Shown here: positions 1-3,091 of the stretch, in pieces
Position numbering within the stretch: the first letter of the stretch is position 1
How the letters are laid out: each line of letters begins with the position of its first letter
Assembly (NCBI GenBank): GCA_903875465.1
Contig: CAIQWB010000005.1
Span: 1 to 64,000 of the forward strand
Length of the DNA: 64,000 nt
Direction of reading: 5' to 3'
From: an uncultured Verrucomicrobia subdivision 3 bacterium
GTDB taxonomy: Bacteria; Verrucomicrobiota; Verrucomicrobiia; Limisphaerales; UBA11358
Notes under the pieces: model-generated
Databases searched by the model: none
What the model was told of the DNA's origin: nothing
What the model saw: the letters and a program-made list of their open reading frames with translations, nothing else
Position numbers and translations under genes: made by a program

Positions 1-118
1 TCGCCGAGCCTGTATCTCATTGAGGGCCAACGGCCCGCCCTCATACCAGCCTGGGCCACCGGCCCAGGTAAACCGTCCCATCCCCTTTTAGGGCTGAAGG
101 CCCGTCCCATCGACTAAG
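1..118. repeat. Hairpin-rich dispersed repeat, copy 1
   Basis: The same ~118-bp sequence recurs at 2530-2648 with only a handful of changes. It holds three hairpins in a row: GGGCC/GGCCC around 24-36, CCTGGGCC/GGCCCAGG at 50-68, and GGGC/GCCC at about 91-103, each with a loop of only a few bases. The left end may continue beyond the window. No ORF here looks real. It resembles the palindromic intergenic repeats common in Verrucomicrobiota and Planctomycetota genomes; that link is from memory and not checked. Confidence 0.8.
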
Positions 119-300
119 CAACACCACCAGTCATCCTCATTTCACCGGCGGCGTGGCTTAGCTTTTGACCCGGTCACGTCACCTGAGTAAGTTCGACCGG
201 TGTCGCCGCTTGAACGCATGCCTGGCCAGGTCGCCACGCACCAGCTCCTATCCGGACGGTTGGCTTGAAGCTTGCATGTTGAATATTCTCTGAATATTGG

Positions 301-514
301 AGTTTGAAATTTGCAGTTTCCTCCCCCCCCGCCGCAGCAATGCCTCATCCCACCGGGACACTCTTCGCCAGTTCAATGCCGGTCCGACCATCCTGCGAGC
401 CCGCCTGCTGTCCCCATCATCCACCCTGAGCTGGTAGGAAACGACGTAAGGAGTTTCTAATTAAATCCCCGCCCCGGCCATTTTGAAATCTGAAATTTCC
501 CATCTGAAATCCCC
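301..514. repeat. ~212-bp direct repeat, copy A
   Basis: This segment is almost identical to 1013-1224. The visible differences are a longer C run near 321-330 and a few single-base changes. It starts with AGTTTGAAATTTG and ends in the GAAATCTGAAATTTCCC / CATCTGAAATCCCC tract. No coding potential is apparent. The two copies flank the small cassette-like ORF at 683-991, which suggests duplication or recombination around that insert. The stretch between this repeat and the ORF (515-682) shows nothing recognisable except the left cassette end at 659. Confidence 0.85.
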
Positions 515-658
515 AATTCTTTGCCCCTCCGCCTGTGGCTGTTGCCGGTTCCATAATGGCCCCCTGGTTAGCCATCTGATGCTCGACAGGCCAGATTTAA
601 AGGATTATACCCAATTCTATGAATGGTGCTAAACCACACAATCGTGACTCACTATCAT

Positions 659-1011
659 GTTAGGCATCCTAGCGCGCACTTTATGAACATTACATCCCGA
701 TACTCCGACATTCCCGAAGTTGTGATTGACGAGTCGAAGATTCCGGCGGCGGTTCGCCATCTTCTTCCGCTGGCGAGAGAGTGGAGCATCAGCGATGATG
801 TCCAGCTTGATGGTTTCATCAAGGCAGCATCGCCAGAAAAGCGGCGAGAGTTTTTTGAGGCATTCCGTCCGCACTTCGCTGCGCTGGCCGCATGGAATCG
901 AGAGTCAGCGCAGCTTGTGCCGCAGCCGGACGAGCTTGTTCTTTTTGACATCGCAGCAAACGCAGCCGCGACAGTTGGCAGCACATTATGATTTTGACCC
1001 GGATGCCTAAC
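659..1011 (+). mobile_element. Integron-cassette-like unit with 11-bp inverted ends
   Basis: The left end reads GTTAGGCATCC (659-669) and the right end GGATGCCTAAC (1001-1011), an exact inverted repeat. GTTAGGC fits the GTTRRRY R' core and GCCTAAC fits the RYYYAAC R'' core of integron attC sites. A single small ORF (683-991) fills the unit, starting 14 bases after the left end and stopping 9 bases before the right end, which is the compact layout of gene cassettes. No integrase, attI or complete attC is visible: no GTTRRRY partner follows the right end, because the ~212-bp repeat begins there. It is therefore best read as a decayed or relocated cassette. A small element with terminal inverted repeats is the alternative. 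Confidence 0.45.
683..991 (+). CDS. Small hypothetical protein in a cassette-like unit
   Basis: This is a 102-residue soluble protein with no signal peptide and no membrane segment. I do not recognise a family. The sequence is mixed and globular-looking, rich in charged residues (for example SPEKRREFFEAF near residues 49-60), and it ends in an alanine-rich segment. The start at 683 is preferred over the in-frame ATG at 623 because 683 lies just inside the cassette-like boundary at 659-669; the upstream part would cross that boundary. There is no Shine-Dalgarno sequence. Single small ORFs of unknown function are typical cargo of environmental integron cassettes. That it is a real gene is plausible but not proven. 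Confidence 0.5.
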   Translation: MNITSRYSDIPEVVIDESKIPAAVRHLLPLAREWSISDDVQLDGFIKAASPEKRREFFEAFRPHFAALAAWNRESAQLVPQPDELVLFDIAANAAATVGSTL

Positions 1012-1012
1012 C

Positions 1013-1224
1013 AGTTTGAAATTTGAAGTTTCCTCCCTCCGCCGCAGCAATGCCTCATCCCACCGGGACACTCTTCGCCAGTTCAATGCCGGTCCGACCA
1101 TCCTGCGAGCCCGCCTGCTGTCCCAATCATCCACCCTGAGCTGGTAGGAAACGACGTAAGGAGTTTCTAATTAAATCCCCGCCCCGGCCTGTTTGAAATC
1201 TGAAATTTCCCATCTGAAATCCCC
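1013..1224. repeat. ~212-bp direct repeat, copy B
   Basis: This is the second copy of the repeat at 301-514. It begins one base after the right end (1001-1011) of the cassette-like unit. The core around GCCGCAGCAATGCCTCATCC and the tail are essentially unchanged, so the duplication looks recent. Confidence 0.85.
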
Positions 1225-1499
1225 TGACCGTACCCCTACAAGTGGACTGGTTTCAAAGTTAGTCGTTGCCAGTCTCATTTGGTTCAACCCAAGGCGTCTG
1301 CTGACCATTCCTCCTCCCCGTCCGCCATAGGAGCTGCGTCGGCGGATCGTGGGGGTGAGGGCGAACGTCACGTCTCCCACCGGGACTGATCTCCTCAATT
1401 CACTGACCGCGCCAACTATAAATTACACAAACTTAGATTGATAAGCTGGAGTATTGCAAAAATACAACCGCTTGGCGCCCATCCCTCCGCCACCTGCTC
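1225..1499. other. Intergenic stretch without a supported gene
   Basis: Only short, low-quality ORFs are present. A segment near 1371-1415 (TCCCACCGGGACT onward) weakly resembles the TCCCACCGGGACA part of the direct repeats, so this may be a more diverged relative of them. The A+T-rich part near 1416-1460 could hold a promoter, but no clear -35/-10 pair stands out, and the next gene on the right is transcribed toward this stretch. Confidence 0.4.
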
Positions 1500-2372
1500 C
1501 TACGGTGGGTCAGCCGCACCCGCCTGCAACCGGGTGGCGAAGGGAAAACGGTAAGTGGTTTGCCCCATCGCCAGTGCCTGGCCAAATGCCAGCATGGCCG
1601 CATGTCCCTCGGCCGTCACCGTCAACGGTGGCAGAAACAAATTGACCGCCATCCCTTTGAGGCTGCCCATCCAATGTTGCCAGAGGCTGTCCGCTGCCGT
1701 GGCCGATTTCAGCGAGTCCAGCGTCACTTCCATCTGCGGCGGACCCGTTTGCCGGCGAAACGTCAGCGCCTTCACCCGCGCCACCAGTTCATTCTCCGGA
1801 CCAATCACCCCGTTATGACTGGCCAGGTCCTCCAGCCGGATGCTGACCGGACTTGCCTGGCCCTGCGCATTGAATCGCAGCCGCACCTCCGTCACCGTGG
1901 GTTCCCCGTTGGTCAGCCACCCGGCGATCTCCACGCTCCCCCGGCCCGCCCCGGCCACCTGAATCGCCGTGAGTTGATGGGTTAGCGGATGGCCGGCGAG
2001 CAATTCCTGCCGCCGCCGCTGAATCTTGCCCGTATGATCAAAAACACTCCGCTGCAACCCCGCGCCCGTCAGCGCAAATTCACAGACCGCCCGGAACTCC
2101 GCCCCATTCGTCACGCAGTGCCGGGACAGGATGCGGGCCTGCTGGGTATTGCCGGCGTTGGTGTGCACCGCCACTGTATCCGGGGAAATCAGCGGGATAA
2201 AATACATGAAATCATTCAGCGGATTTTCCGGTGCGGTACGGCTGCGGTAATCAAAGTGCAGTGTCGGCCCCGTCAGGGCCGCCGGCAACCGGCCCGCCAG
2301 CAACCACCAACATCCCCAGGCCGCCAGCAGCCACTTCCGATTCACGCGCGGGCCAAAGCTCATGGCCCCCAT
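1500..2372 (-). CDS. Secreted protein of unknown function
   Basis: About 290 residues from the start at 2372; another ATG at 2363 is possible, and a longer in-frame start at 2420 would add an unlikely N-terminus. The N-terminus (MGAMSFGPRVNRKW followed by LLAAWGCWWLLAGRLPAA) looks like a signal peptide with an Ala-rich cleavage region. The rest is a soluble, beta-rich-looking domain with no cysteine clusters or recognisable catalytic motif. I do not recognise a family. It stands alone between repeats and is transcribed away from the GH2 gene, so context gives no function. Its composition is like that of the resident genes. Confidence 0.65.
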   Translation of the reverse strand: MGAMSFGPRVNRKWLLAAWGCWWLLAGRLPAALTGPTLHFDYRSRTAPENPLNDFMYFIPLISPDTVAVHTNAGNTQQARILSRHCVTNGAEFRAVCEFALTGAGLQRSVFDHTGKIQRRRQELLAGHPLTHQLTAIQVAGAGRGSVEIAGWLTNGEPTVTEVRLRFNAQGQASPVSIRLEDLASHNGVIGPENELVARVKALTFRRQTGPPQMEVTLDSLKSATAADSLWQHWMGSLKGMAVNLFLPPLTVTAEGHAAMLAFGQALAMGQTTYRFPFATRLQAGAADPP

Positions 2373-2529
2373 GTTTCCAGCCCGGCCCCTATAATTCAAC
2401 CCGAAAGCCGCACTTAACAACCCCCGTCAGGGGGCCGGCCATGGACCCTTGATATGCTGGGGATGCGGCACTGCTTCTGGTGTTTGCCCCCGGTTGTCAA
2501 TTCGTCGATCCTTGGGCGCTGAGCCGGTA

Positions 2530-2648
2530 TCGCTGAGCCTGTATCTCATTGCGGGCCAACGGCCCGGCCTCATACCAGCCTGGGCCACCGGCCCAGGTAA
2601 ACCGTCCCCTACCCCTGTTAGGGCTGAAGGCCCGTCTCATCGATTAGC
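2530..2648. repeat. Hairpin-rich dispersed repeat, copy 2
   Basis: Near-identical to positions 1-118, in the same orientation, with the three short stem-loops retained. Together the two copies bracket about 2.4 kb containing the direct repeats and the cassette-like unit. Confidence 0.8.
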
Positions 2649-3091
2649 TTCGGCAGTTCATCGGCTCACGGAATACCGCACCGCGCTTATCACCGCAGCC
2701 ACCACCGGCAAGATTGATGTGCGTAACGTGAAAGTCCCTAGGGCATGGCCTTGCTTCCTTGGGTGTATTTTAGGTCAAAGCCCCTCATTCCGGCCTATTC
2801 TGCCACCAGGCCCTTTCTCTTGTGTCATAAAATAATCTAAAAACGGCCAATTTTACGATGTTTGCGGCTATTTAATGATTTTTCCCCAAGCCGGCGGCCC
2901 CTTGTCTCCGGTGCTTCCGGCAACCTAATTCCTGCACCGGCCTCATTTGACAATATCCCCCCGCTGTCCTATACTCATCAAGCGAGCGGTTTAAGCGGGG
3001 TGGTTAATCCACGCCTCCACCCGTGCCCCGTGGTCGCCTTGCGCCGCTCCCGGTTCTTTGACATCCCAAAACCGCTGCCCCGAACCTGTAG

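Follow-up and report, generated by a model that had tools for sequence, protein, structure and literature searches.

The window, as we call the 64,000 nucleotides of verrucomicrobial DNA analysed here, carries near its start a short open reading frame (ORF) that lies between what appear to be the parts of a dismantled integron. From left to right, we distinguish the following features:

301–514 (+): left-hand repeat copy, which shares 97% identity with 1013–1224 and is joined to the integrase stub via 515–530.
531–554 (−): stub of an integron integrase gene (intI) that comprises eight codons beginning with the start codon, ATGGAACCGGCAACAGCCACAGGC = MEPATATG, from the alignment with L073, an integron locus of the same genus.
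555–665 (+): putative attI region, the integron docking site, which ends in the GTTAGGC core site at 659–665; collinear with L073 and with a second copy that this genome has in contig C60.
604–632 (−): promoter-like site TTAGCA-17-TATAAT (PintI-like) facing the intI start, from a consensus scan (10/12).
626–652 (+): eroded attI inverted motif, GTGCTAAACCACACAATCGTGACTCAC, from comparison with same-genus loci.
659–1012 (+): gene cassette without its attC, from the GTTAGGC core site to the R'' box GCCTAAC plus one base, delimited by blastn match limits against the relatives L028, L029 and L030.
683–991 (+): cassette ORF for a 102-residue protein of no recognised family, predicted to be all-helical, described from relatives, dN/dS, profile searches and AlphaFold.
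1005–1012 (+): attC remnant, reduced to the R'' box plus a single base; none of L'', loop, L' and R' is left, and from 1013 the sequence is repeat, not attC.
1013–1224 (+): right copy of the repeat, 97% identical to 301–514, which abuts the broken attC.

The single compact ORF fills a 353-bp unit that is bounded by a left core site of the type GTTRRRY and a right R'' box of the type RYYYAAC. These bounds, GTTAGGC (659–665) and GCCTAAC (1005–1011), are the outer ends of an exact 11-bp inverted repeat, GTTAGGCATCC at 659–669 and GGATGCCTAAC at 1001–1011, whose coordinates had been given correctly in an earlier note on this DNA. By itself, the repeat is weak evidence for a cassette, since the window contains 40 exact 11-bp inverted repeats with arms 100–600 bp apart, compared with 16 expected under a first-order Markov model. 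It is the only one with a left arm starting GTTRRRY (0.05 expected), and the pattern GTTAGGC-N(325–355)-GCCTAAC likewise has one match (0.00 expected).

More telling are the relatives of this unit. Proteins 85–86% identical to that of the window occur in three other MAGs, one of Thiobacillus (L028) and two of Verrucomicrobiota, namely a Limisphaerales MAG (L029) and a further one in which the N-terminal part of the protein is missing (L030). Two additional loci, L095 and L096, come from the genomes that also contain L029 and L030, which leaves only three independent close relatives. When window positions 1–1500 were compared with these loci by blastn, the matches to L028 and L029 began at 659 and ended at 1011/1012, and that to L030, which lacks the left end, ended at 1012; apart from the stretch between GTTAGGC and GCCTAAC(C), both included, they share no notable DNA with the window. 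After the unit, L028 has a 78-bp attC (42.5 bits) and then a second cassette, and L030 a 93-bp attC (30.1 bits) and another ORF. In L029, the unit comes after the complete 108-bp attC of another cassette (78.9 bits; L'' CTGGAGCC, L' GGCTCAG with one extrahelical base), and of its own attC only the beginning (26.7 bits) is present before the contig ends. The covariance model behind these scores was built from 18 sites (16 from same-genus loci, 1 from a Limisphaerales MAG and 1 from Thiobacillus); as the attCs of L028 and L029 were among them, their scores are partly so by construction, while the attC of L030 was not part of the training set. The terminal repeat is conserved as well: GTTAGGCAT/ATGCCTAAC is common to L029 and the window, and L028 has kept it through paired changes (GTTGGGCAC/GTGCCCAAC).

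The same cassette is thus found in unrelated hosts, adjoining attC sites and, in L028 and L029, beside other cassettes. Because the DNA homology with all three relatives stops at the core sites and all three adjoin a full attC, we consider the 353-base unit to be a real integron gene cassette. The number of 11-bp repeats in the window (40) might invite the view that this one arose by chance around an ordinary chromosomal gene, but a break in homology at core sites with attC adjoining, together with paired changes that maintain the repeat, refutes it, leaving it a negligible probability. The cassette proposed in the earlier note is therefore upheld, and so is its reading of the outer arms as core sites. 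What that note had named as speaking against a cassette, namely homologues that always occupy fixed non-cassette contexts or that lack the repeat, is contradicted by these loci.

Two further observations concern the relatives. At L029:4416–4456, an attI-like motif lies before the first cassette and adjoins an HU-like gene, with no integrase visible; this locus is probably another decayed integron. In genome G429 (L096:1500–1740, L100:1479–1588), the same cassette is split across two contigs, as residues 1–30 and 24–102, as if cut by an inserted repeat.

The cassette ORF shows pairwise dN/dS values of 0.085–0.144, over dS of 0.6–1.0, which indicate purifying selection and show no more than that it is maintained as a protein; they mostly span the time before the cassette became frozen. 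The protein had been described as belonging to no recognisable family, and our searches agree: it has no match in Pfam or NCBIfam, none below E=0.3 in PHROG and no significant one among PDB sequences or in a fold search with the predicted structure (AlphaFold; five helices, pLDDT 78, pTM 0.65), and it was not found in plasmid, phage and IMG/VR collections. Distant relatives (27–33% identity) have the motif LxPxAxxxxIxDD in common.

What the window copy lacks is the recombination site. Its attC sequence stops one base after R'', and genomic repeat takes over. Across the whole 64 kb, the covariance model found no attC at E≤10, and with filters off it gave at most 7.3 bits in 1–3000, which is chance level; neither the pattern finder, the covariance model nor folding detected an attC, either inside the window or at its ends, in line with the earlier observation that no full site is present. 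The absence of an attC-like fold at either end, also taken beforehand as a point against a cassette, is true of the window copy, but truncation explains it and the relatives retain the fold, which is why we do not count it against the cassette. As a complete, foldable R''-L''-L'-R' hairpin is missing here and present beside L028, L029 and L030, the unit is better described as a cassette remnant than as a mobile cassette.

The left flank shows where this remnant is located. Window positions 531–665, aligned from 534 on, are 84% identical over 134 bp to L073:428–561 in the same-genus genome G826, where the counterpart spans the intI start to the first cassette; the alignment includes the intI start (ATGGAACCGGC...), and both sequences end at GTTAGGC. 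L073 encodes a full integrase of 336 residues that begins with MEPAKTTFKAGEGFIPN... (434.6 bits with TIGR02249), and its counterpart of the stubs in the window and in C60 reads MEPAKTTFKAGEGFIPNPALRLR... In the window, the frame enters unrelated repeat sequence after the eighth codon (554 to 531). The copy of 531–665 in C60 (87% over 135 bp) likewise has GTTAGGC as its end, after which comes another small ORF or cassette, unlike that of the window. A search for this leader across the class returned only the two copies of the genome itself; the match in G826 came from the integrase loci of our survey of the order. Within the leader, the promoter-like site, of which 0.7 are expected by chance in the region, retains its TATAAT in L073 and C60. 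The arms of the inverted motif are fully paired in three same-genus intI loci (GTGA/TCAC and CCAC/GTGG or CCTC/GAGG, a compensatory change), whereas one pair per arm is broken in the window and two are broken in the outer arm in C60. We take 555–665 to be a putative attI because it is homologous to the intI-proximal part of L073 and lies next to the intI start; among copies from the same genus, one is closely similar and two are less so. A reading of the 135-bp leader as the degenerate attC of a preceding cassette was rejected, as it consists of the intI start and attI.

Since 531–665 comprises the intI start, a promoter-like site and attI, the cassette has not wandered off but occupies the first position in a decayed integron. 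The earlier note had called it a possible orphan that had either left its platform or been deprived of it, with no integrase in the window. Of this, the move does not hold; the loss does, with the cassette still abutting attI and the intI start, and a full integrase gene is indeed missing, although the first eight codons of one persist at 531–554 (−). The term 'orphan' fits the lost integrase and attC, not the location. The same flank largely refutes an off-target insertion, in which an integrase acting in trans would have used a secondary GTT site of the chromosome as its target, with attC lost later. Such a route has been proposed for cassettes that lie outside integrons (PMC8618304), but the left flank is attI with the intI start instead of a random secondary site, and we regard such an origin as very improbable. 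We thus interpret the structure as the wreck of a chromosomal integron, composed of an intI stub, attI, the first cassette and an attC cut after R''. That the window holds a relic integron with its first cassette, which is common to both histories considered below, has in our estimate a probability of about 0.9.

The surrounding genome offers several comparable remains. In a survey of the order with the TIGR02249 profile, 99 of 320 genomes contained an integron integrase over the cut-off; the genome of the window is not among them, its best match reaching 80.9 bits against a cut-off of 265. Besides the eight codons in the window, it holds decayed intI pieces in C60 and C150, which answers the suggestion in the earlier note to look for an integrase elsewhere. 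Its other main matches, on C25 and C122, are far below the cut-off and appear XerC/D-like, judging from their scores and, for C25, also from the translation. In this MAG, which comprises 153 contigs and is 96% complete, an integrase could lie in the portion not recovered. The decayed integron in C60 (L023:4748–6884) comprises an intI stub (MEPATATGKAGEGFIPN) with traces to about residue 37 in another frame, attI, two cassettes and weak attCs (23.1 and 20.2 bits), and it carries a lysozyme-like cassette (phage-lysozyme, PF00959). The one in C150 (L027:3449–5117) retains an N-terminal intI part with an in-frame stop (E=3e-13 against the integrase of L073), beside attC-like sites of 19.3 and 14.8 bits, and C64 has a 40-bit attC fragment at a contig edge. 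Three degenerate attC left halves in this genome (L023:5199–5230, L023:5688–5720, L038:65–100) read GCCTTCTCATGGAAGTCGCCGGAG, where the genus has GCCTAACAAGTCGCCGGAG; in all three, the AAC of R'' is swapped for the same longer stretch. The loop of degenerate attCs of the genome also contains a dispersed repeat, TCCGCCGTAGCCTTGGCGAAGGCGGA (L023:6773–6815, L038:108–140).

From known integron biology, a working integron would have captured the 102-residue gene as a cassette at attI through IntI-catalysed attI × attC recombination. The integrase gene would then have been deleted from codon 9 on at an 8-bp microhomology, as bases 531–538 (GCCTGTGG) are present both in intI and in the repeat (contig C42), and the attC hairpin would have been lost through a break adjoining R''. 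Both breaks are joined to copies of one repeat; the order and mechanism given here are our reconstruction. With the integrase gone and no attC able to fold, the cassette would now be frozen, its excision no longer possible, and a promoter in the attI region may still drive expression of its intact ORF. An assembly error at 1012/1013 is conceivable, since the window is a contig start among repeats, but the copies being 97% and not 100% identical argues against a simple artefact.

Alternatively, microhomology-driven template switching could have placed a copy of block 539–1012, taken from a different integron, in a repeat locus that was already there, a process that would also create the flanking direct repeat 301–514/1013–1224. 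That a 97% direct repeat flanks the block is in keeping with such a copy, as is C42:262–458, which joins window 423–538 directly to about 1219–1296 and thus represents a form without the stub-attI-cassette block; the left break lies at GCCTGTGG, found in this form and in intI, and a second attI copy with another cassette exists in C60. However, C42 begins with GCCTAACC and a degraded IS110-type element, so that it may be a rearranged relative and not an empty site, and C60 is not the donor because its cassette differs. We consider template switching possible but the less likely course, and prefer decay in place or some unseparated mixture of the two. The joint between GCCTAACC and the IS110-type element recurs in C115 and after the first cassette in L073, which indicates that the region was reshuffled more than once. 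It is conceivable but in our view improbable that attI-cassette modules are themselves duplicated and scattered in verrucomicrobial chromosomes by repeat- or microhomology-driven copying, independently of IntI; if so, this would leave expressed but immobile cassettes and turn a mobile cassette into a fixed chromosomal gene.

The IS110-type element, with its left end AGATAGAATGAG, lies directly after GCCTAACC at L073:85–130 (−), L024:1–30 (C42) and L091:1495–1535 (C115), and one of these three insertions directly follows the R'' of a cassette. IS1111 elements are reported to target attC, and the element is possibly a comparable, attC-targeting IS110 relative in Verrucomicrobiota. A motif of about 30 bp, GAGCTGGTAGGAAACGACGTAAGGAGTTTC (window 428–460 and 1138–1170), is found some 15 times across the genome, in several cases close to a contig end; in C115, it lies within an IS110 coding region.

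The gene-capture system itself is well known, and the window clearly holds a further example of it, a fossil locked into a verrucomicrobial chromosome. Integrons have been reported from Verrucomicrobiota (PMC8618304; PMC9024848), and in the literature that we searched they are little described for this phylum, which lends interest to a cassette fixed in place after the death of its integron. Finders based on attC would miss this relic because it has no attC and keeps attI, and such relics would be recognisable by attI. With them, the frequency at which captured cassettes turn into ordinary genes of the chromosome could be addressed, and the order would be good ground for this question, as about a third of its genomes carry an integron integrase over the cut-off.

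Compared with a sedentary chromosomal integron (intI-attI-cassette array), the relic retains the intI start, attI, core site and cassette in standard order and orientation, with intI divergent from the cassette, but is reduced to eight codons of intI, one cassette and no complete attC. It also resembles a CALIN, the IntegronFinder term for a cluster of attC sites lacking an integrase (PMC9024848), for which intI loss is one proposed and recognised origin (PMC8618304). Both contain cassette material without an integrase, usually read as a degraded integron, but a CALIN by default has at least two clustered attC sites, whereas the window has none and keeps attI; C60 fits this class better. With an In0, it shares the attI platform part of an integron. 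An In0 is an integrase without cassettes, and the relic is its reverse, with the cassette kept and the integrase lost.
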